A DNA stretch of 36,125 nt from Candidatus Poriferisocius aerobius. GTDB lineage: Bacteria; Actinomycetota; Acidimicrobiia; Acidimicrobiales; Bin134. Where the stretch lies: NCBI GenBank assembly GCA_028278955.1, contig JAPYOC010000180.1, positions 1-36,125 on the forward strand, written 5' to 3'. Every line of letters starts with the position of its first letter. Positions within the stretch are counted from its first letter, which is position 1. This document shows, piece after piece, positions 19,244 to 31,085 of the stretch. The notes beneath the pieces are model-generated. The model was given only the letters and a program-made list of their open reading frames with translations. It had not been told where the DNA came from and ran no database searches. The position numbers and the translations under genes were made by a program.

Positions 19244-20989
19244 TCACAGGCGCGGTCCGGCGATTCGCACATCGCCCCTTCGCCGGGTCATCCCATGGCC
19301 ATCTAGCCAAGCCAAGAGCGGCAACGCGTATTTGCGCGTGGTTTTCAAGCGCTCGCGCACCTCGGCCACGGTGACCCCGTCGGGCTGATCGGCCAGCATG
19401 TCGGCGAGCACCGAGCGGGCCGCCTCCAACGTCGTGGCCGCGAAGAACACGCCGTCTTGCTCCACAACCAACCCCCGCTTCACCAACTCCCGCACTTCAC
19501 TCCGGGCCACGCCCGCCGCTTCAGGGTCGGGGGGGGTGAACGGGGCTGCCTCCAAGGCCGCGGTGTACCGGTGGCTCTCATAAGGATCCGATTGCCCGAT
19601 GGGGCGCACTCGGCCTCCCTCAACCGCCACATCCTCGATGAGGCTCAATACCGCCCTGTCCCTGCTGTTGAGCCCGGCGGTGTCCAGCCCGAAGGGGCCG
19701 GCGGCGTCCACGGCGCTCCGCAGCCGGGTCCGGGCCTCCTCCAGCAGGGCCGGGCTCACCACCCACCGCCCGACATCGGGGGGCCGCCGCCGACCGGTCA
19801 AAAGCACCAGGCGGTCAGCTTCCACCCAGCCCCGTTCGGCCACCACCCTGTCGATTGACAAATCGGGCTTGGCCCGCGACGCGGGCAGCACCGGGTCGAC
19901 GTCGAGCACGGTTCCGCCTCCGATGGTCTCGGCTCGGCCGCTCTCCCGCAGCACGAAGCGGTCGCCGGGCAGCAGCGGCAGCCGGCGGGGGAGATGGAGC
20001 CGGACCGATCCAGTTTCGCCCGGCGACAGGGCCTCGAGCCCGAGGATGCGCATGCGGGCCGGCAACTCGCACGCTCCGACATACACCGCGTGCGCCCCTC
20101 GGCGGGACACGTCGTGGTCCAAGGCGCTCAACACGGTCAAAGAAGCGTCGAAGCGGTCGGTGAGGTGCCATTGCCCGGCCCGGACGAGCACATCGCCTCG
20201 GACAACCTGCTGGTGGGCGACACCCGAAAGGTTGACCGCGACCCGATTGCCCGGCCCGACCTTGGGACGCGGGGTGTGGTGGGTCTGCAAGCCCCGGATG
20301 CGGACCGCGACCCCTCGGGGCCACAGCTCCAATTCGTCTTCGACTCGGATCTGCCCGCCGCTCAACGTGCCGGTTGCCACCGTTCCGGCCCCCCGGGCGG
20401 CGAACACCCGGTCAACCCACAGCCTTGGGCGGCGCTGGTCGACAGCCGCGGGGGCCCGGTCCAACAACTCCTCCAACGCCGCTCGCAGGCCGTCGAGGCC
20501 CAACCCGTCCACCACGTCGGTCTCCACCACCGGCGCCGCGGCCAAGAACGTGCCCTCAACCCGCTCCTCGACCTCCAAACGGGCCAGCTCGGCGATGTCA
20601 GCGTCGCATGCTCCCACCTTGGTCAAGGCGATCAACCCGTGCGACACTCCCAGCAGTTCCAGGATGCGGAGGTGCTCCTCCGACTGAGGCATCCACCCCT
20701 CATTGGCCGCCACCGCGAACAAGCAGGCATCCACCGCCCCCACCCCGGCGAGCATGTTGCGGATGAACCTCTCGTGGCCGGGCACATCGATGATGGAGAC
20801 CGACCGGCCTGAGGGCAAAAGCACCGAGCCGAACCCCAGGTCGATGGTCAAGCCTCGGGCCTTTTCCTCGGCAAATCTGTCGGGGTCCACCCCGGTGAGC
20901 GCTTCCACCAGCGCGGACTTCCCGTGATCCACGTGGCCGGCAGTGGAGATGGTGATGCTCAACGCGCCACCCCGGCCCGCTCGACACAC
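19244..20989 (-). CDS. selB: Selenocysteine-specific translation elongation factor SelB
   Basis: GTPase that brings Sec-tRNA to the ribosome at UGA codons followed by a SECIS hairpin. The N-terminal G domain has GHVDHGKS (18-25), the switch segment with ARGLTIDLGFG and the G3 box DVPGHERF. EF-Tu-like beta-barrel domains follow with VFAARGAGTVATGTL. The C-terminal winged-helix region ends with RKYALPLLAWLD, the typical SelB ending. At 581 residues it is complete. The GTG at 20989 is 31 bp after selA; a TTG at 20962, giving LSITISTAGHVDHG, fits the family start better and may be the real one. Last gene of the mrp-fxsA-selA-selB run. Confidence 0.95.
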   Translation of the reverse strand: MCRAGRGGALSITISTAGHVDHGKSALVEALTGVDPDRFAEEKARGLTIDLGFGSVLLPSGRSVSIIDVPGHERFIRNMLAGVGAVDACLFAVAANEGWMPQSEEHLRILELLGVSHGLIALTKVGACDADIAELARLEVEERVEGTFLAAAPVVETDVVDGLGLDGLRAALEELLDRAPAAVDQRRPRLWVDRVFAARGAGTVATGTLSGGQIRVEDELELWPRGVAVRIRGLQTHHTPRPKVGPGNRVAVNLSGVAHQQVVRGDVLVRAGQWHLTDRFDASLTVLSALDHDVSRRGAHAVYVGACELPARMRILGLEALSPGETGSVRLHLPRRLPLLPGDRFVLRESGRAETIGGGTVLDVDPVLPASRAKPDLSIDRVVAERGWVEADRLVLLTGRRRPPDVGRWVVSPALLEEARTRLRSAVDAAGPFGLDTAGLNSRDRAVLSLIEDVAVEGGRVRPIGQSDPYESHRYTAALEAAPFTPPDPEAAGVARSEVRELVKRGLVVEQDGVFFAATTLEAARSVLADMLADQPDGVTVAEVRERLKTTRKYALPLLAWLDGHGMTRRRGDVRIAGPRL

Positions 20990-21020
20990 GCTCGGGACGT
21001 CTCCGGCGCCGTCGCGCTGG

Positions 21021-22304
21021 TCATGGAAGGCCCCTCAGGGCGGCGACCACATAACGGTCGTCGCCAGCCGCCACCGTCCTCAGGTCGAGCCACGTGCGGT
21101 TGTCGCCCACTCGGGCAATGACGGGGGGGGTGCCGGCCCGCAGGGCCGCGGTCCAGTCGCCAGCCACCACCACTCCGCACGAGCCGATCTCTGTGCCGGG
21201 AAGCGTGCCGCCGCCGGGCACCGAGGCCACCTCGGCCACCTCGCCGACCCCGGACTCGGCCACCACCGCGTGGGCCCGTCGCTCCAGCTCGTCCGCGGCC
21301 AGTGACGCCATCCGCCAGAATTCGATGGCCTGCCCGTCTCGCCGCAGATAGGCCAGCGCCACCTGCTGAAAAGCGCTCAGCACCAGGCTCCCCGGCCTCA
21401 TCGCCCGGGCCAGGGGATGCCGGGCGCATCTTCCCACCAGATCGGCCCGGCCGGCGATAACCCCTGCTTGGGGGCCGCCGAACAGCTTGTCGCCGGAGAA
21501 GGTCACCAGCGCCGCCCCCGCGGCCAGGGTTTGGCGGGCCGCGGGCTCTCCGGCCAACCATGCCGGCGGGCCGTCTTCCAGCCACGGGCAGGCGCTGTCC
21601 ACCAATCCCGATCCGATGTCGGCCACCACCGGGACGCTCAGCGATGCCATCTCGCCCACGGTGACATGCTCGGTGAAGCCCACGATCCGATAGTTGGACT
21701 GATGCACCTTGAGGGCCAGCACGATGTCGTTGGCCGGATCGTCGGCGACCGAGGTGAAATCGGCCAGACGAGTTCGGTTGGTGGTGCCCACTTCCACGAG
21801 CCGAGCCCCGGACTGCTCCATGACCTCCGGGACCCGGAATCCGCCGCCGATTTCCACCAGTTCCCCCCGCGACACTGCTACCCCGCGCCCGGCCGCCAGC
21901 GCGGCCAGCGCCAACAGCACGGCCGACGCCCCGTTGTTCACCACAATGGCGTCCTCGGCCTCGCACAGCCGGGCCACCAAAGCGGCAGCATGGCCGTGCC
22001 GGGAGCCGCGGCGGCCCGACGAGATATCCAGTTCCAGGTTGGTGTAGGCGGCATCGGCGGCGACCGCCAGCGGCGACCGCCCCAGGTTGGTGTGCAGCAG
22101 AACCCCAGTGGCGTTTATCACCGGCTGCAGCAGCGACCGGGCCGCGGCGCGGGCATGGCGCCGAGCCCGCTGGCCCACTTCTTCAGGACCGCCATCGGCG
22201 ATGGCCGCCCGGGCCGCGTCCACCAGCAGCGGATGGGGCAGCCCGGTGTCGGCCAGCGATCGGGCGAGAGCATCCACCGAAGGCGGTCTCACGGATCTGT
22301 CCAA
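21021..22304 (-). CDS. selA: L-seryl-tRNA(Sec) selenium transferase
   Basis: PLP enzyme that converts seryl-tRNA(Sec) to selenocysteyl-tRNA(Sec). Family phrases visible are INATGVLLHTNLGRSPL (65-81), EDAIVVNNGASAVLLAL, GGGFRVPEVM, VGTTNRTRLADF and the PLP lysine Lys274 in TFSGDKLFGGPQAG. Length 427 is slightly short of the usual 450-460, mostly at the N-terminus. The start is TTG at 22304 or GTG at 22292; neither has a clear Shine-Dalgarno. It begins 33 bp after fxsA. selD and selC, which it needs, are not in the window. Confidence 0.95.
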   Translation of the reverse strand: MDRSVRPPSVDALARSLADTGLPHPLLVDAARAAIADGGPEEVGQRARRHARAAARSLLQPVINATGVLLHTNLGRSPLAVAADAAYTNLELDISSGRRGSRHGHAAALVARLCEAEDAIVVNNGASAVLLALAALAAGRGVAVSRGELVEIGGGFRVPEVMEQSGARLVEVGTTNRTRLADFTSVADDPANDIVLALKVHQSNYRIVGFTEHVTVGEMASLSVPVVADIGSGLVDSACPWLEDGPPAWLAGEPAARQTLAAGAALVTFSGDKLFGGPQAGVIAGRADLVGRCARHPLARAMRPGSLVLSAFQQVALAYLRRDGQAIEFWRMASLAADELERRAHAVVAESGVGEVAEVASVPGGGTLPGTEIGSCGVVVAGDWTAALRAGTPPVIARVGDNRTWLDLRTVAAGDDRYVVAALRGLP

Positions 22305-22778: not shown

Positions 22779-23969
22779 CTATTGAGCAGCGATGTCGAGT
22801 TTGGCGAGGGCTTGCTCGGCGGCCTCGAAAATCCGGGCAGTGCAACTCGCCATCTCCACCGGGGGGACTTCTTCCAGCAGCCGATCGGCGATAGAGCGGA
22901 ACGCCGCCGCCGCCGAACCGGGAGCTTCCCCGAGCACCACAGGATCCCCCTCGTCTCCGGCGGTGGCCACGGAACCGTCAATGGGCACCTGGCCCAGCAG
23001 GGACACGCCGAGCTCGTCGGCCAGTTCCTGCCCGCCCCCGCGGCCGAAAATCTCGTACGACGCACCGTCGGGGGTTGTGAACGCGCTCATGTTCTCGATC
23101 ACCCCGGCGATCCGGAGATAGTTGGAACGCCCCATCGAGGCGACTCGAGCGGCCACTTTCTGAGCGCTGCGGGCCGGGGTGGTGACCACCACCATCTCCG
23201 CTTGGGGAAGCATCTTGGCGATGCCCATCTGCACGTCGCCGGTTCCCGGCGGCATGTCGATCAGCAGGTAGTCCATCGGCCCCCAACGGACATCCTCCAA
23301 AAAATGCTGGACCGCCCGGTTCAACATGAGGCCCCGCCACATCAGCGCAGCTTCCTCCCGGTCGACCAGGAATCCCATCGACACTACTTCCAGAACGCCG
23401 TCGCCCACCGGCTTGCGGTTGGGAACGATCTTCTTCTCGTCCTCCGCGCCGGCCAGGCGACCCTCCACACCCAGCATTCGGGGCACCGAGTAGCCCCAGA
23501 TGTCGGCGTCCATGACCCCAACCCGCATTCCCCGACGAGCCAGCTCAGCGGCCAGGTTCACCGTTACCGACGACTTTCCCACCCCGCCCTTGCCCGATGC
23601 CACCATCACCACCTTGGTGGTGGGTGCAACTGCGGTGTCGGGGGCGTTCTGGGCCACGTTGAAGCGGGCCTTGGCCATCGCGGCGGCCTTTTGGTCTTGG
23701 GTCAACTCGCTCCAGTGGATCTTGACCTTCTCCACCCCCGGGAGGTCGCCGACCCGGCTGCGCACCTCACGCTGGATCTGGGCCCTCAGCGGGCATCCTG
23801 CGGTGGTGAGCGCCACGGTCACCTCGACAAGGCCGTCGGAGTTGACCACCGCGTCGCGGGCCATGCCCAGCTCAACGATGTCGGTGCCCAGCTCAGGGTC
23901 GATCACCCCGCGGAGCACGCCCATCACATCTTCAACCGTCGGCAGCGCTGCGGCTGCGCCATCGCTCAC
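22779..23969 (-). CDS. mrp: Mrp/ApbC-type P-loop Fe-S carrier protein
   Basis: A 396-residue protein with an N-terminal MIP18/DUF59 domain (VMGVLRGVIDPELGTDIVELG, about 15-35, and TTAGCPLR) and a MinD-like ATPase domain with the deviant Walker A GKGGVGKS (126-133). DADIWGYSVPRMLG and DMPPGTGDVQ follow. Such proteins carry [4Fe-4S] clusters to target enzymes. The CxxC pair present after ENMS in many homologues is missing (FTTPDGASYEIFG), as in other actinobacterial members as far as I recall. The GTG at 23969 is chosen because TAGCAT (23978-23983) ends 8 nt upstream and the upstream frame to 24134 is unconserved and overlaps erpA. It is divergent from erpA. Confidence 0.92.
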   Translation of the reverse strand: MSDGAAAALPTVEDVMGVLRGVIDPELGTDIVELGMARDAVVNSDGLVEVTVALTTAGCPLRAQIQREVRSRVGDLPGVEKVKIHWSELTQDQKAAAMAKARFNVAQNAPDTAVAPTTKVVMVASGKGGVGKSSVTVNLAAELARRGMRVGVMDADIWGYSVPRMLGVEGRLAGAEDEKKIVPNRKPVGDGVLEVVSMGFLVDREEAALMWRGLMLNRAVQHFLEDVRWGPMDYLLIDMPPGTGDVQMGIAKMLPQAEMVVVTTPARSAQKVAARVASMGRSNYLRIAGVIENMSAFTTPDGASYEIFGRGGGQELADELGVSLLGQVPIDGSVATAGDEGDPVVLGEAPGSAAAAFRSIADRLLEEVPPVEMASCTARIFEAAEQALAKLDIAAQ

Positions 23970-23977
23970 AGCCGTCC

Positions 23978-23983
23978 ATGCTA
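23978..23983 (-). promoter_or_regulatory. Candidate -10 element for mrp (leaderless)
   Basis: TAGCAT on the minus strand fits TANNNT and ends 8 nt before the mrp GTG, with no Shine-Dalgarno between. It supports the chosen start and an mrp-fxsA-selA-selB transcript. Confidence 0.4.
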
Positions 23984-24102
23984 CCGGCTGTGGGCGCGTG
24001 TCTCGACGGGAGGGGGAGTGCTGCGCCTGGGTTTTGGTGTGCTGGATCATGGAGCCGGGCGATAACATGGCACCGTTCGCAGCATTCAACAGGGAGAGCT
24101 TC

Positions 24103-24429
24103 GTGATTACCCTCACAGATGCCGCCACAGGCAAAGTCGGCGACCTAGTGCGCCAAGAGCAGGCCGACGACGAAGAGCTGGCCCTACGGGTGGCAGTACG
24201 CCCCGGCGGTTGCTCTGGTTTCAGCTACGAGATGTATTTCGACGCTGACATCGGCACCGAAGACCAAGAGGTGCTCTTCGGGGACGTCAAGGTGGTGGTC
24301 GACTCCTCAAGCGCTGCCCTGCTCGAAGGCGCCGTTCTTGACTACAAAGACGGATTGACCGATGCGGGGTTCTCCATCACCAATCCCAACGCTCAGCGCA
24401 CCTGCGGCTGCGGTCAGAGCTTCAGCTAA
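24103..24429 (+). CDS. erpA: A-type iron-sulfur carrier / insertion protein
   Basis: A 108-residue HesB/IscA/ErpA-family scaffold or carrier of Fe-S clusters. The three ligand cysteines are Cys37 in RPGGCSGFSY, Cys101 and Cys103 in TCGCGQSFS, the classical C-x63-C-x-C pattern. The GTG at 24103 is preferred because GGGAG stands about 8 nt upstream and the protein then begins with the family-typical ITLTDAA; an ATG at 24067 would add 12 residues. It is divergent from mrp, another Fe-S carrier, and 40 bp upstream of the 2x[2Fe-2S] fusion gene, so a shared Fe-S role is likely. Confidence 0.92.
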   Translation: MITLTDAATGKVGDLVRQEQADDEELALRVAVRPGGCSGFSYEMYFDADIGTEDQEVLFGDVKVVVDSSSAALLEGAVLDYKDGLTDAGFSITNPNAQRTCGCGQSFS

Positions 24430-24469: not shown

Positions 24470-25999
24470 TTGGAATTCACCGTAGACGGTCGCCTCATCG
24501 AGATCGCCGACGACGGGGCCTCGCTGATGGAGGTGCTCCGCGACCGCCTCGGCATCCACACGGTCAAGGACGGGTGTAGCCCCCAAGGCCAATGCGGCTG
24601 CTGCACGGTGTGGGTGGACGGGAAGCCGAGAGTGTCCTGCGTGACCCCGGCCCGCCGAGCGGCCGGTCGCGAAATCACCACGCTGGCCGGACTGCCGCCT
24701 GAAATACGAGCGGGGTGGGGGGAGGCGTTCTGCGCCTCTGGCGCCAGCCAGTGCGGTTTCTGCACCCCCGGCATCATCATGCGCCTCGCCGGCCTCGAGG
24801 CGCGGGCGGGCCGCACGCACACCCGCTCCGAGGTCGCCTCGGCACTGGCCGCCCATCTGTGCCGCTGCACCGGCTGGCAGACCATTTTGGAGGCCTGGGA
24901 CGGCTTCGGCACCCCGGCGCCCGGGCGCGACTGGGCTGCGGCCGCTCGGCGGGCCGCGCTTGAGGGGGGCGTTTCGCAGGCAGTGGGGCCGGATGTGGCA
25001 TTGGGACAGGGGGGCTTCGCGGCTGACACCGCGCCCGCGGGGGCCCTCGTCGCCCTGTCCGATGGGCGCGGCGGATGGGCTTTGGGGGAAACCGCGGCCG
25101 AGGCCCGAGCCGCCGCCGGGAAGGTGCAGGGCCGACGCACCCCTGATGAGCGGCCCATGCCCTTGGAACTTCCTGACGGGGACTGGGCAGTACGGCTCCG
25201 CACCTGCTGGGTGGAGCCGGCCTATTTGGAGACGGATGCCTCGTGGTGCGTGCCCGGCGGTGAGCCGGCTGGACCGCTGGCCAACGGCGGGGCATTCGGG
25301 GCCAAGCTCACATCGCTGCTGCCCGGCATCGCCCGGCGGTTGGCCGACGAGCACGGCCGCCCGGTCCGGGTTCTGTGGTCTCGAGAGGACACGGTCCGCC
25401 GTGGCCCCAAGCGCCCGCCGGTGGCCATTGGGGCCGATGCCGACGGTTGCGGCGTGGCCCGGGTGGTCCGCACGCCTGGGGTGTCCGACGTCATCGCCTC
25501 AGCGGCCCCCGGCCTCGAGGTGGAGGAGGTGGATGTCGCCGGGCCGGCGACGTCGATTGCCCTTCGGGGCGCAGGCTGGGTGGAGGCGGCGGTGGCACTG
25601 GACGCGCTGAGCGACGGGACCGGCGAAATGGTTGCCCCCGGCGGTGGATCAGCCTGGGCCGGATGGCACCGGGGTAGCTTGCAGATTCACGTGCAGTGCG
25701 GCGATCCGCTGGATGAGATCGTGCTGCGCTCCTACTGCATCGGTGCCGCCCACATGGCCTACAGCTGGGTCACCTCCGAAGCATTGGCTGTAGACCACAG
25801 CGGGGAGGTGCACGACCTCACCATCCGCTCCTTCGGGGTGGTGCCTGCGTCTCAGATGCCGCCGGTGGAAGTGGAGATCATGCCGTCCGAAGGTGCGCCC
25901 ACCAACGGCTCCGATGCGGTGTTCGCCGCGGTCGCCGCGGCAACCTGGCGGGCGGCAGGGCAGCCTCCCGACTGGCCCACCGGCCCGATCGACGCCTAG
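24470..25999 (+). CDS. Fusion of CoxS-like 2x[2Fe-2S] domain and reduced molybdenum-hydroxylase-like domain
   Basis: A 509-residue protein. Residues 1-150 are a complete CoxS/XdhC-type electron-transfer unit. The plant-type cluster ligands are Cys36, Cys42, Cys45 and Cys57 (CSPQGQCGCCTVW), and the second cluster has Cys95, Cys98, Cys131 and Cys133 (CGFCTPG and LCRCTGW). Residues about 165-509 recall the large subunit of xanthine dehydrogenase-type enzymes: GGAFGAK (273-279), WSREDTVRRGPKRPP and a C-terminal NGSDAVFAAVAAATW where active enzymes have their GE-motif glutamate. The large part is about 340 residues instead of about 750. The catalytic glutamate seems replaced. TTG at 24470 (LEFTVDGR) is the best start; no Shine-Dalgarno is clear. 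The stop overlaps the glnE stop. Substrate unknown. Confidence 0.75.
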   Translation: MEFTVDGRLIEIADDGASLMEVLRDRLGIHTVKDGCSPQGQCGCCTVWVDGKPRVSCVTPARRAAGREITTLAGLPPEIRAGWGEAFCASGASQCGFCTPGIIMRLAGLEARAGRTHTRSEVASALAAHLCRCTGWQTILEAWDGFGTPAPGRDWAAAARRAALEGGVSQAVGPDVALGQGGFAADTAPAGALVALSDGRGGWALGETAAEARAAAGKVQGRRTPDERPMPLELPDGDWAVRLRTCWVEPAYLETDASWCVPGGEPAGPLANGGAFGAKLTSLLPGIARRLADEHGRPVRVLWSREDTVRRGPKRPPVAIGADADGCGVARVVRTPGVSDVIASAAPGLEVEEVDVAGPATSIALRGAGWVEAAVALDALSDGTGEMVAPGGGSAWAGWHRGSLQIHVQCGDPLDEIVLRSYCIGAAHMAYSWVTSEALAVDHSGEVHDLTIRSFGVVPASQMPPVEVEIMPSEGAPTNGSDAVFAAVAAATWRAAGQPPDWPTGPIDA

Positions 26000-28701
26000 T
26001 GGGCCTCACCGTAGAACAGCCGGTCGGTCACCTCTCGCACGGCTTCGGTGATCTCCTGGTAGTCGGCTTCCAAGTCCTCGGGGCTGGGATAGCCGAGGCG
26101 CCGGGCCAGCAGGAGCTCTTCGTGGTCGTCGTCGGGGAACACGTCTGACGAGAGTCCGGAAAGGTGGTAGCGGGCGTTGCGGAACCGCTGGCAGAAGCGA
26201 TGGCCCACATCCAGGGTGGCTCTATCGGCGATGTCCAGCAGGCTGTGCTCCGACAACCCGGCAAGCGCCGAGAGGGTGCGGTTGTCCCTGATCGAGTCTC
26301 GCCTGAAACCGTGCTGGAGCTGCATGAGCTGCACGGTGAACTCGATGTCGCTGAGCCCGCCCGCGCCGAGCTTCACGTCTCGCACCTTGCTGCCGCCACC
26401 GAGCTTCTCGGTTTCGATGCGGCGCTTCATGGCGCGGATCTCCTCTGCTTCGGCTTCGCTGAAGTCGGGCTGGTAGCACCACAGGTCGATTCGCTCGACG
26501 AAGCGCCGGCCCAGATCAGCGTCCCCGGCCACGAAACGCCTTTTGAGGAGCGCTTGGCGCTCCCAGAGCTGGCCCCGCTCGGCGTAGTAGCGCTGGTACC
26601 CCTCAAGCGACCGAGCGAGCTGCCCGTTCTCTCCCTCGGGGCGCAATCGGGCGTCGATCTCCCAGGCCCGACCCTCCGCGGTTTGGGCGCCGATCTCTTT
26701 GAGCAGGCTCCGGGCGGTGCGATTGGCAGCTCTGGCGTCATCAGAGCCCGTGCCCTCGTATACGAAGATCACGTCCAGATCAGAGGCATAGGAAAGATCG
26801 AGGCCGCCATAGCGCCCAAGCCCGACCACCGCGAAAGGCATGTCCGGGGCCAACGAGCCGATGGCCGCGGCCACCGCGGCATCGGCGATGATGGTCAGCT
26901 CTTGGGGGATCTGGATGATCGACGCCAGCCCCAGGATGTCCCGGGCCGCCACCCGCAGCTGCTCGCGCCGCACGAATCGGCGCAGCTCCGCCATTTGGAG
27001 GTCGCGGTCGCCGGCGGCAGACTGCATCGCGGCGGCGGCCTCGGCCATCAAGGCATCCCCGGTGCGGGGCACGGCCAGCTCCTCAGAGCTCATCAGCGAT
27101 CGGGCGAATTCGGGGTGGCTGCGCAGCCACCCCGCGGCCACTCGACTTGATCCCAGCAGCCGAGCAATGTAGCTGATGGCAACAGGGGAGTCGCGCAGCA
27201 CCGGGAGGATGGTGCCGACTCGGTAGGAGCCGTCCAGCAGCCAGGCCAGTCGCACGAGGCCCAGATCGGGGTCGGGGGTGGCGGCCAAGGCCTCCACCAT
27301 GATGACCAGCACCTGCTGACCGACGTTGGCCCGGCGGCCGAGGTTGGCAGTCAAGCGCTCAATGGTTTCGGCCGCCCGGGCGGGATCGGCGAAGCCCAGC
27401 TGCCCGAGCCGGTCGGGAAGAAGCTCGCTCACCAGACCGGTCTCGTGCATCCGATCCAAGGTCTGGCGGTAGAAAACCCGCTGGTGAATCTCCCGCACCG
27501 AAGTCTGATGGCGGTTGTGGGAAGCCTGAAACGCTTCCAGGCTTTGGAACCCGGAGGCCAAAGCCACCCACTGCCGGTCGGCGTCCCCGGAGGGCAGTTC
27601 GTGGGTCTGGCGCTCGTCGCGAAGCTGCAAGCGGTGCTCCACCGTGCGCAGATGGATGTAGGCGGTCGTGAAATGAACGGCGTCGGCCTCATCGATGTAC
27701 TCCCCCCAGCTGAGCTGGCGCAGCGCGGTGAGGGTGTTGGGGGAGCGGATGGTGGGATCGGTGCGGCCGTGGACCAGCTGAAGAAGCTGCACCGTGAACT
27801 CGATGTCCCGCAGGCCGCCGGGACCCTTCTTGATCTCCCGGTCGCCCTTGTGTTTGGCCGACTCCTCCACCCGCAACTTCAGAGCCCGCAGGTGCGGCAC
27901 CGTGTCGGCCTCCAGGTTCTCCCCCCACACTCCCGGCTTGATGGCGTCGAAAAAGGCGTTGCCCAGCTGCGGGTCGCCCGCGCACAGTCGGGTCTTGATA
28001 TAGGCCTGCTGCTCCCACGGCACCGCCCACCGGTCGAAGTAGGCGCCAAATGCCTCCGGGGTGCGGCTCAGCGCTCCGGCCCCGCCCTCGGGGCGAAGCT
28101 CGATGTCCACCCGGTACACCTGCCCCTCGGGAGTGAACGCGGTCAGTATCTCCAGCACCCTTCGGGCTCGGCGGGCGGCCGCGGCGGGATCGCCGCTGTG
28201 GACGAACACGACGTCCACGTCGCTGGCGTAGTTCAGCTCGCTGCCTCCCAACTTGCCCATCCCGATGATGGCCAGGGGCGGGCCTTCATCGGCGATCTCC
28301 AAAGCGCGGGCGAAGCAGGCGTCGGCCAGCAGCGACAGCTCTCGGCCCACGGTGGCCAGGTCGGCCTCGCCCAGCAGGTCGCGCAACGCGATGCGCAGGA
28401 GCTGGCGGCGCTTCCACCGCCGCAGCCCGTCGAGGGCGTCGTCGTCGACGGGGGCGACCAGGGTCATCTTCTCCACCGCGAACTCGGTGGCGGGGTCGAG
28501 CACGCCCAGCAGGCTGGGATCGCGGCGCACCGCCTTGCTCATGCTGCGGGAAGCCCCGGCCAGCATCGCCGCGGCCCGGACCCGGCGCTCATCGGCAATG
28601 CCTAGATCTTCGATGAGCGAACGGGCCTCGGCAGGCCACGGACAGGAAGCGAGCAGGGCGTCGATGTCCTGGATGGGGCGACCCTGGCTACTGGCTTCCA
28701 T
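25996..28701 (-). CDS. glnE: Bifunctional glutamine synthetase adenylyltransferase/deadenylase
   Basis: A 901-residue protein with two nucleotidyltransferase halves. The N-terminal half (removal of AMP) has GMGKLGGSELNYASDVDV (147-164) and GLRDIEFTVQLLQL. The C-terminal half (addition of AMP) has GLGRYGGLDLSYASDLDV (about 625-642) and GGLSDIEFTVQLMQL. It controls GlnA by modifying a tyrosine, and the target site is visible in the glnA product at 31296 (Tyr403). In Actinobacteria this gene is commonly next to glnA and glnA2. The ATG at 28701 lies within a short direct repeat. It is convergent with the Fe-S/Mo-like fusion, sharing CTAG (25996-25999) as overlapping stop codons, and divergent from ridA with a 26-bp gap. 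Confidence 0.96.
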   Translation of the reverse strand: MEASSQGRPIQDIDALLASCPWPAEARSLIEDLGIADERRVRAAAMLAGASRSMSKAVRRDPSLLGVLDPATEFAVEKMTLVAPVDDDALDGLRRWKRRQLLRIALRDLLGEADLATVGRELSLLADACFARALEIADEGPPLAIIGMGKLGGSELNYASDVDVVFVHSGDPAAAARRARRVLEILTAFTPEGQVYRVDIELRPEGGAGALSRTPEAFGAYFDRWAVPWEQQAYIKTRLCAGDPQLGNAFFDAIKPGVWGENLEADTVPHLRALKLRVEESAKHKGDREIKKGPGGLRDIEFTVQLLQLVHGRTDPTIRSPNTLTALRQLSWGEYIDEADAVHFTTAYIHLRTVEHRLQLRDERQTHELPSGDADRQWVALASGFQSLEAFQASHNRHQTSVREIHQRVFYRQTLDRMHETGLVSELLPDRLGQLGFADPARAAETIERLTANLGRRANVGQQVLVIMVEALAATPDPDLGLVRLAWLLDGSYRVGTILPVLRDSPVAISYIARLLGSSRVAAGWLRSHPEFARSLMSSEELAVPRTGDALMAEAAAAMQSAAGDRDLQMAELRRFVRREQLRVAARDILGLASIIQIPQELTIIADAAVAAAIGSLAPDMPFAVVGLGRYGGLDLSYASDLDVIFVYEGTGSDDARAANRTARSLLKEIGAQTAEGRAWEIDARLRPEGENGQLARSLEGYQRYYAERGQLWERQALLKRRFVAGDADLGRRFVERIDLWCYQPDFSEAEAEEIRAMKRRIETEKLGGGSKVRDVKLGAGGLSDIEFTVQLMQLQHGFRRDSIRDNRTLSALAGLSEHSLLDIADRATLDVGHRFCQRFRNARYHLSGLSSDVFPDDDHEELLLARRLGYPSPEDLEADYQEITEAVREVTDRLFYGEAH

Positions 28702-28727: not shown

Positions 28728-29075
28728 ATGAGTATTCCGGTTGGACCCTATTCTCCCATTGTCCGAACAGGAAACCTCCTCATCTGCTCGGGTCAGATCG
28801 GGATTGCCGACGGGTCGCTGGTGCCCGGCGGGACCGGCGCTCAGTTCCGCCAAGCGGTGGCCAACGCCAAGGCGGTGCTGGCCACCGAGGGGGCCACTCT
28901 GGACGATGTGGTGAAGACCACCGTCTTCTTGCTGCACATGGACGATTTCGGCGCCATGAACGACGTCTACATCGAGTGCTTCGGCGCCAATCGCCCCGCC
29001 CGCTCCGCGGTCGGCGTCGCCGGCCTGCCCCTCGGCGCCCTGGTGGAAATAGAGCTGTGGGCTTCCGTGGGCTGA
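28728..29075 (+). CDS. ridA: RidA family enamine/imine deaminase
   Basis: A 115-residue member of the YjgF/RidA family, which hydrolyses reactive 2-aminoacrylate and related imines to ketoacids and ammonia. IPVGPYSPIVRTGNLLICSGQIG (3-25) is the family start. The carboxylate-binding arginine is Arg92 in PARSAVGVAGLPLGA, and Glu108 lies in VEIELWA, so the active-site pair of the deaminating subgroup is present. It is divergent from glnE and convergent with glnR, whose stop is 4 bp away, placing an ammonia-releasing enzyme inside the nitrogen-control block. Confidence 0.92.
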   Translation: MSIPVGPYSPIVRTGNLLICSGQIGIADGSLVPGGTGAQFRQAVANAKAVLATEGATLDDVVKTTVFLLHMDDFGAMNDVYIECFGANRPARSAVGVAGLPLGALVEIELWASVG

Positions 29076-29079
29076 GCGG

Positions 29080-29745
29080 TCATCGCTCCCAGCGGGAGAG
29101 CCCGAAGCGATAGCCCACGGAGCGGACAGTGGTGATCAGGCTGGCGTGCTCTTCGCCCAGCTTGGCCCGCAGGCGCCTCACATGAACGTCCACGGTGCGG
29201 GCGCCTCCAAAATAGTCGTAGCCCCACACCCGGCTGAGCAGGGTCTCCCGTGTGAACACCTTGCCCGGCGAGCTGGCCAGGAACTTCAACAGCTCGTACT
29301 CCATGTAGGTGAGGTCGAGGGGCCGGCCGGCGATGGTGGCCTGATACGTCTCCACGTTCAACACCATTGGGCCGTACTCGATCAGTTCGGGGCGCAGCGC
29401 CGTGCCCGACCGCCACACCAAGTGGGCCAGCCGGGCCTCCAGCTCCCGCTGATGGAAGGGGGTCAGGCAGAAGTCGGTGTAGAGGTCGTCGCGCATGTCC
29501 AGCTCGTTCAGATGGGCCCCGGACACCAGCAGCAGTACCGGGATGCCCAGACCCCCGCGGGCCAGAGCACGGCAGAACCCGAAGGCGTCTTCGGGACTTT
29601 CCTCTGCGGCCACCACCGCTCCCAGCCACCGGCCTTCCGGCTCGTGGACGCGGCCCGCGGCCTTCCAGTTGTAACCGGCCAAGTCCAGGGTGCGGACCAG
29701 CTCCGGCGGCGGCGGATCAGGGAAAACGAGCAGCGGCTCGGTCAC
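29080..29745 (-). CDS. glnR: GlnR-like OmpR-family nitrogen regulator
   Basis: A 221-residue protein with a degenerate receiver domain (1-110) and an OmpR-type winged helix (about 124-215: LTYMEYELLKFLASSPGKVF, WGYDYFGGARTVDVHVRR, TTVRSVGYRF). The receiver lacks the usual phosphoacceptor: AVVAAEES stands where the family has its Asp. GFCRALARGGLGIPVLLLV resembles the GlnR version of that domain. GlnR is an orphan regulator that activates glnA and other nitrogen genes in Actinobacteria. The GTG at 29745, 5 bp after the glnA2-like stop, is preferred over an in-frame extension to 29841 lying inside that gene. The pairing with glutamine synthetase genes supports GlnR over other OmpR paralogues. 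Confidence 0.82.
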   Translation of the reverse strand: MTEPLLVFPDPPPPELVRTLDLAGYNWKAAGRVHEPEGRWLGAVVAAEESPEDAFGFCRALARGGLGIPVLLLVSGAHLNELDMRDDLYTDFCLTPFHQRELEARLAHLVWRSGTALRPELIEYGPMVLNVETYQATIAGRPLDLTYMEYELLKFLASSPGKVFTRETLLSRVWGYDYFGGARTVDVHVRRLRAKLGEEHASLITTVRSVGYRFGLSRWER

Positions 29746-29750
29746 AGCGG

Positions 29751-31085
29751 CTACCAGGTGTTCAGGTACCGGCGGAGCTCGAAGGGCGTGACCTCCCGGC
29801 GGTAGTCGGCGAACTCGGCCCGCTTGTTGCGCAGGAACCACTCATGGATGTGCTGGCCCAGCACGCCGGCCATCAGCGGAGACTGCTCCAGCCCATCCAG
29901 CGCTTCCGACAACGACATGGGAAGCTCCTCGAAGCCCTTGGAACGGGCTTGCCCCCCAGTCATGGTGTAGAGGTCGGCGGATGCCTCGGCGGGCAGCTCA
30001 TAGCCCTCCTGCACCCCTTTCAAACCGGCGGCCAGCACCGCGGAGAACGCCAGGTAGGGGTTGGCCGCCGAGTCCAGCGCTCGATATTCGATTCGGGTGG
30101 ACGACTCCTTGCCCGGCTTCACCACCGGCACCCGCACCAGGGCAGAGCGGTTGTTTCGGGCCCACGACACGAACGTGGGCGCCTCATCGCCGGCCACCAG
30201 CCGCTTGTAGCTGTTCACCAGCGGGTTGGTCACCGCGGTGATCTCCCGAGCGTGGTGCAAGAGGCCGGCGATGAAGGCCTTGGCCGTTTTCGAGAGGCCA
30301 TAGTCGTCGCCAGCGTCATAAAAGGCGTTCACGTCGTTCTCGAACAGCGACATGTGGGTGTGCATCCCCGACCCCTGCGCGCCGTTCAGCGGCTTGGGCA
30401 TGAACGTGGCGTGCAGATCCCGGTCCAGCGCCAGCTTGCGCACCACCAACCGCAGCGTCATCACGTTGTCGGCCATGCTCAGCGCCTCGGTGTAGCGCAA
30501 ATCGATCTCGTGCTGGCCGGGACTCTCTTCATGGAAGGAATACTCCACCGGGATGCCCATGGCCTCCAACATGGTGATCGTGCGCTTGCGCAGCGGGCTG
30601 GCCACGTCTGCGGTGGTCAAATCGAAGTAGGAGGCGTTGTCCAGCGGCGCCATCGGCTGAGTGGGATCGTTATGGCGGAAATAGAAGAACTCCACCTCCG
30701 GCGCGGTGTAGAAGGTGTAGCCCAGCTCGGCGGCCACCGCCAGGCTGCGGCGCATCACCCAGCGGGGATCGCCCTCAAAGGGGGTGCCGTCAGGCTTGCG
30801 GATGTCGCAGAAGATCCGGCCGGAGGGCTCCTCGGGGTCGGCCCACGGCAGCAGCTCGAAGGTGGCCGCGTCGGGCACGGCCAGGACATCGCTCTCCTGC
30901 ACCCGGGAGAAGCCGTCGATGGCCGAGCCGTCGAATTGCAGGCCCTCGTCGAAGGCGTCGGCCAGCTCCGCCGGAGAGATTGCCACCGACTTGAGCTGGC
31001 CCAGCACGTCGGTGAACCAGAGGCGGATGAGCCGCACCCCCCGCTCTTCGACGGTGCGGAGCACATAGTCCTTCTGTGGTTCCAC
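29751..31085 (-). CDS. Glutamine synthetase type I, GlnA2-like paralogue
   Basis: A 444-residue GS-I enzyme or related ligase. Present are LQFDGSAIDGF (the beta-grasp signature), the metal-binding EVEFFYF, HEESPGQHEIDLRY, GSGMHTHMSLF, the catalytic NPLVNSYKRLV loop and RIEYRALDSAANPYLAF. The tyrosine adenylylation segment (NLYDLPPEE type) is absent; the C-terminus instead has SADLYTMTGGQARSKGFEELP. It should therefore escape GlnE control. It matches the mycobacterial GlnA2 type next to glnE. Some GlnA-like paralogues act on polyamines, which cannot be excluded. The GTG start is 211 bp from the divergent glnA; glnR follows directly. Confidence 0.92.
   Translation of the reverse strand: MEPQKDYVLRTVEERGVRLIRLWFTDVLGQLKSVAISPAELADAFDEGLQFDGSAIDGFSRVQESDVLAVPDAATFELLPWADPEEPSGRIFCDIRKPDGTPFEGDPRWVMRRSLAVAAELGYTFYTAPEVEFFYFRHNDPTQPMAPLDNASYFDLTTADVASPLRKRTITMLEAMGIPVEYSFHEESPGQHEIDLRYTEALSMADNVMTLRLVVRKLALDRDLHATFMPKPLNGAQGSGMHTHMSLFENDVNAFYDAGDDYGLSKTAKAFIAGLLHHAREITAVTNPLVNSYKRLVAGDEAPTFVSWARNNRSALVRVPVVKPGKESSTRIEYRALDSAANPYLAFSAVLAAGLKGVQEGYELPAEASADLYTMTGGQARSKGFEELPMSLSEALDGLEQSPLMAGVLGQHIHEWFLRNKRAEFADYRREVTPFELRRYLNTW

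Follow-up and report, generated by a model that had tools for sequence, protein, structure and literature searches.

A gene in the window, the whole stretch of 36,125 nucleotides that was analysed, encodes a compact protein of the CoxS-CoxL type, very probably an iron-sulfur protein without molybdenum and not a minimal hydroxylase. This assignment follows from the loss of molybdenum-site elements together with the retention of the gene in genomes without detectable MoaA and MoeA. The reading that we prefer, with a probability of roughly 0.55, is that of a Moco-free two-cluster redox protein, which would act in electron transfer or in redox sensing.

Sequence and predicted structure of the compact protein

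The genome holding the window is a 2.48 Mb MAG that is 93% complete. The gene and the parts of its product are the following.

24470–25999, forward strand: compact CoxS-CoxL fusion gene, 509 aa, TTG start, open reading frame without internal stop
24473–24898, forward strand: CoxS-type part, residues 2–143, from family matches and alignment
24926–25999, forward strand: shortened CoxL-like part, residues 153–509, from family matches, predicted structure and profile alignment
25283–25306, forward strand: NGGAFGAK, retained cofactor-loop motif, residues 272–279, from alignment
25565–25576, forward strand: RGAG, counterpart of the RGFG of the parent, residues 366–369, from alignment
25727–25753, forward strand: RSYCIGAAH, in place of EGQIEGAVH, residues 420–428, from alignment
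25904–25921, forward strand: NGSDAV, at the position of the GAKGVGE of the parent, residues 479–484, from alignment

The TTG start at 24470 is conserved and is used by nearly all members of the genus. Residues 2–143 match Fer2_2 of Pfam (1.2e-17) and TIGR03311 of NCBIfam (2.7e-36, covering the CoxS portion only), and in the PDB they match the gamma subunit of 4-hydroxybenzoyl-CoA reductase, 1rm6_C (8.4e-26). The CoxS-type small subunits (1rm6_C, the small chain of CODH) have an equal two-cluster domain with eight cysteine ligands; they are separate subunits of a molybdenum enzyme, whereas in the compact protein this domain is fused to a truncated large subunit. An alignment of 141 distinct orthologues, on which all conservation counts are based, has the ligands C36, C42, C45 and C57 and the ligands C95, C98, C131 and C133 invariant (141/141), and with the Fer2_2 match this bears out the complete two-cluster CoxS domain proposed in the initial annotation.

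Residues 150–509 searched alone gave weak matches to MoCoBD_1 (2.2e-4), pucD (8.4e-5) and MoCoBD_2 (0.099), all below the curated cut-offs. In the compact protein MoCoBD_1 scores 19.5–20.8 bits and MoCoBD_2 12.6 bits, both under the Pfam gathering cut-off of 27, and among 24 orthologues scanned at E ≤ 0.01 the two families were matched in 23 and 12, respectively. The whole compact protein scores 125 bits against TIGR03311, for which the cut-off is 830.45, and is thus not a member of that family. A phmmer search of the PDB with the C-terminal part alone returned chance matches only; a family profile was required to recognise the homology of this part.

The AlphaFold2 model of the window protein (pLDDT 90.4, pTM 0.92) superposes on the aldehyde oxidoreductase 1dgj with an E value of 9.5e-18 and a TMq of 0.70. 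The model of the orthologue from genome G544 (pLDDT 90.4) has the same fold, with a TMq of 0.72 to the aldehyde oxidoreductase. The Desulfovibrio aldehyde oxidoreductase (AOR; MOP, 1sij/1dgj, 907 aa) is therefore the best fold match to the compact proteins, with TMq up to 0.72 for predicted models; it likewise is a single chain with two [2Fe-2S] clusters and no FAD subunit. An additional metal site formed by cysteines of the C-terminal part (C260, C410, C423) was considered and dropped, because Moco-less members do not conserve these cysteines.

Loss of most of the molybdenum site

In a joint alignment with the fused parent, the compact proteins lack the stretch around GGQGxWDD and most of the second Moco-binding domain, including TEMGQGVHT and TTASRGT. 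They also have eight residues fewer at AKGVGEIGLVP, where NGSDAV or a similar sequence stands and the catalytic glutamate is missing. The counterparts of the deleted segments on the Desulfovibrio enzyme are GQG, GGSR and GVGE (E869), and parent segments of the GQG, SRG and GVGE types contact the cofactor in structures of XDH and AOR. The glutamine of EGQIEG, which belongs to the molybdenum site, is replaced by Tyr422 in 138 of the 141 orthologues. By alignment, most elements of the molybdenum site, namely GQG, SRG, the molybdenum-site glutamine and the catalytic glutamate, are lost across the whole family. The Desulfovibrio enzyme has a molybdopterin cytosine dinucleotide and the catalytic E869, whereas little of this site is left in the compact protein. 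In xanthine oxidoreductase the corresponding glutamate, Glu1261 of the bovine enzyme, acts as the base that initiates catalysis (PMC3624778).

Retained in the C-terminal part are NGGAFGxK, KRPP, the arginine of RGxG, HM, Glu437 and the TIRSFG block. G274, F276, G277 and K279 of NGGAFGAK are invariant among the 141 orthologues, R366 of RGxG is kept in 139, and Gln94 of the CoxS part is kept in the compact family. It had been noted initially that GGAFGAK is present and that NGSDAV occupies the place of the GE glutamate, and both observations were confirmed in the sequence and in the alignment. By analogy with relatives, in which R366 and NGGAFGxK correspond to cofactor contacts, a pterin-like or other nucleotide cofactor may be bound, and such binding is still conceivable because these residues are kept.

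Distribution and conservation of the family

When the C-terminal part was used as the query, 151 of 198 relatives gave a match, as did every one of the 21 genomes in the genus of the window. Almost all of these matches span the query, and a small number at the weak end (E near 1e-4) belong to ordinary CoxL. By profile search, full-length members also occur in further orders of Acidimicrobiia, and the compact gene is absent from many families within this class. Among genomes sampled from other classes in this phylum, the profile found no full-length member, only ordinary CoxL fragments of 30–45 bits. When GTDB was scanned with one genome per species, the titles of the best 80 loci pointed almost throughout to Acidimicrobiia or to actinobacterial MAGs without closer specification, including Ilumatobacter, Microthrix and Acidimicrobiales. 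Three loci from records titled Bifidobacterium breve and Acidobacteria (L214, L160, L184) have the typical Acidimicrobiia arrangement, and these MAG labels look wrong. No match to the compact protein was found among the viral contigs and plasmids searched, and a mobile or viral origin was rejected on this ground.

The 141 orthologues are 495–588 aa long (quartiles 508–536), and 92 alignment positions are conserved at ≥ 98%. Against genus members dN/dS is 0.07–0.13 for the CoxS part and 0.11–0.16 for the C-terminal part, which indicates that both halves are under purifying selection. A length far below the usual and the missing active-site glutamate might suggest a decayed remnant, or a gene shortened artificially by deletion or misassembly. 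We consider this extremely improbable: the orthologues come from many assemblies, and their number, their uniform length, a dN/dS of about 0.1 and the near-invariant positions rule out decay or misassembly. In one orthologue (L020) a C-terminal stretch is tandemly duplicated, with PPDWPTGRLDAQS occurring twice.

Persistence without detectable Moco synthesis

The genome holding the window has separate CoxS and CoxL genes and a Moco pathway, all away from this locus. In family f23 the compact gene was found in 50 of 81 genomes. MoeA was not found in 26 of these 50, and a search for the MoaA C-domain in those 26 found none in 25, of which 18 are at least 90% complete. MoeA is missing in 26/50 genomes with the compact gene and in 15/31 without it (Fisher p 0.82), so that presence of the compact gene is independent of MoeA. 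In genus g351, both MoaA and MoeA are missing from 10 of the 11 genomes that have the compact gene. The same searches gave matches in 11 of 14 control genomes. Gaps in MAGs could hide Moco genes, but the double absence in nearly all g351 genomes with the compact gene is hard to explain in this way.

No genuine CoxL was found in four streamlined genomes (G094, G536, G544, G566), and in two of them (G544, G566) MoaC was not found either; the compact proteins of all four have all the cysteines and the retained motifs. A genome of a different family (G065) has the compact gene, and searches of it found neither MoeA nor MoaA. Genome G585, apparently without MoaA, MoaC and MoeA, was dropped as evidence because it has three full CoxL genes. 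An orphan MoaC, that is, a good MoaC match with no MoaA C-domain and no MoeA, was seen in G094, G536, G743 and G065.

These data bear on the new minimal hydroxylase suggested in the initial annotation, in which Moco would sit in a reduced site. Retention of NGGAFGxK, of the RGxG arginine and of Gln94, and the ability of the window's own genome to make Moco, agree with it. Against it stand the family-wide absence of the catalytic glutamate and of three more molybdenum-site elements, and the presence of the gene in genomes where neither MoaA nor MoeA was detected and where, in four cases, CoxL is lacking as well. We therefore disfavour a molybdenum hydroxylase as quite improbable.

Origin from a fused single-chain enzyme

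Ordinary fused chains of the same class and phylum have about 850–900 residues, carry NGGAFG, RGFG and GVGE, and match TIGR03311; two such relatives, L077 and L081, score 970 and 963 bits, above the cut-off of 830. Selenium-dependent molybdenum hydroxylases have been described (PMC2276186). By profile and by tree, a fused chain of the SD-XDH type (TIGR03311, about 850 aa) is closest to the compact protein for both the CoxS and the C-terminal part, and it has the same order, CoxS and then CoxL, in one chain. Common to both are NGGAFGxK, KR-P, TLKSLGI/TIRSFGV and the HM motif. Compared with this chain, the compact protein has only 509 aa, a compressed hammerhead, a deletion of most of MoCoBD_2, and none of GQG, SRG and GVGE.

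The profiles of the compact and the fused family align by hhalign with an E value of 5e-61 and 39% identity over 327 columns. Together with the superposition on 1dgj, this makes it certain that the short C-terminal part is related to CoxL, as initially suggested. The fusion in one chain, which had been regarded as unusual, is not so, because AOR and SD-XDH are also single CoxS-CoxL chains. In a tree of CoxS sequences the compact family forms a single clade (support 98/94) nested among fused forms (97/99). Its nearest neighbours are the fused copies from Acidimicrobiia (91/88), and the stand-alone CoxS genes in the genome of the window lie apart from it. A fused parent of the full-length type is also present in the genome of the window, on contig C188, where it is cut by the contig end. 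As read from these sequence comparisons, the compact family descends once, in an ancestor of Acidimicrobiia, from a fused SD-XDH-type enzyme by internal deletion.

Gene neighbourhood

The genes around the compact gene in the window are listed below.

22779–24134, reverse strand: mrp/apbC, Fe-S carrier ATPase, divergent from erpA
24103–24429, forward strand: erpA, A-type Fe-S carrier, ending 40 bp upstream of the compact gene
25996–28701, reverse strand: glnE, an antisense insertion between the compact gene and ridA in the genus of the window
28728–29075, forward strand: ridA, Rid-family enamine/imine deaminase, separated here by glnE and directly downstream in most relatives
29080–29841, reverse strand: OmpR-type regulator, GlnR-like by position, adjoining glnA
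29751–31085, reverse strand: glnA, glutamine synthetase

The erpA gene in front and mrp on the opposite strand are as first annotated. Neighbours were counted at about 130 loci, each gene being scored where the contig reaches far enough. The erpA gene lies upstream in 116/119 loci, so that orthologues keep this linkage as well as their length, and mrp is present in 107/111. Downstream on the same strand, ridA was found in 107/127 loci, at a distance of ≤ 100 bp in 68. The OmpR-type regulator occurs in 98/118 loci and glnA in 97/116. Upstream of mrp, selB and selA (19244–22304 in the window) have an order that is repeated in about a dozen related loci; a search for a selC tRNA within the window found none. 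At several loci (L049, L052, L121, L128, L131, L144), in many families and not in the window, a divergent gene lies between erpA and the compact gene, and it encodes a secreted, thioredoxin-fold-like protein with a twin-arginine-like signal and CPFH...TPARCQTxxCGPVLD.

The frequency of erpA and mrp would fit an accessory factor that works with ErpA and Mrp in biogenesis or repair of Fe-S clusters, for example as an electron donor or cluster reservoir, and both partners are carriers that deliver clusters (PMC8593673). However, the compact protein has no likeness to a known scaffold or carrier (a scan against Pfam and NCBIfam gave no match to the A-type, Nfu or Mrp carrier families), and the gene is absent from many families of Acidimicrobiia that surely make Fe-S proteins. 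The linkage of mrp, erpA, ridA and glnA may also be merely inherited gene order. We regard such a factor as unlikely.

The proximity of ridA raises a different possibility, that of an Fe-S-only enzyme whose vacated pocket converts a nitrogen-containing metabolite by a redox reaction, with RidA hydrolysing the imine or enamine product, so that the gene pair forms a small pathway. In addition to the counts given above, ridA stays adjacent in Moco-less genomes (L057, L132–L134), the C-terminal part has many invariant charged residues, and N-heterocycles are substrates of the parent. On the other side, RidA is a general housekeeping deaminase, glnE lies between the gene and ridA in the genus of the window, ridA is not nearby at some loci, and we know of no CoxS cluster that catalyses by itself. 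We hold this enzyme to be a tentative alternative. Equally speculative is a rebuilt molybdenum hydroxylase scaffold, a core gene of the class coupled to RidA, in which the emptied pocket by the proximal [2Fe-2S] cluster would be a new substrate site.

Proposed function and significance

As one option, the initial annotation offered a protein of molybdenum-enzyme descent with a role in electron transfer or sensing. The descent stood up, most of the molybdenum site is indeed gone, and the role itself is what we infer. By homology, the Moco-free redox protein would have two [2Fe-2S] clusters and a vacated pocket. ErpA, which in E. coli makes the final handover of clusters to many targets (PMC8593673), would help to fill both clusters. 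The N-terminal cluster would dock a redox partner, as CoxS docks to its flavoprotein, and electrons would move on to the second cluster, beside the vacated cofactor pocket. A ligand or a partner protein would bind in this pocket, for which the near-invariant NGGAFGxK, KRPP, R366, E372, RSY, H428, E437 and DLTxRSF are the predicted lining. Possibly the protein acts together with RidA, whose gene is often directly 3'.

We found no description of the compact family in the open-access literature, and no curated family of Pfam or NCBIfam covers the C-terminal part or the whole compact form above its cut-off; the family appears to be an offshoot of the xanthine oxidase family that lacks the cofactor and is not previously described in these sources. 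Annotation through the CoxS part would mislead, since it would label the protein as a molybdenum-enzyme component. If our reading is true, the xanthine oxidase family has a class-wide and strongly conserved descendant that outlived its molybdenum cofactor, also in lineages where Moco synthesis was not detected, and this opens the question of the independent life of the two-cluster module and of the uses of an emptied Moco pocket.
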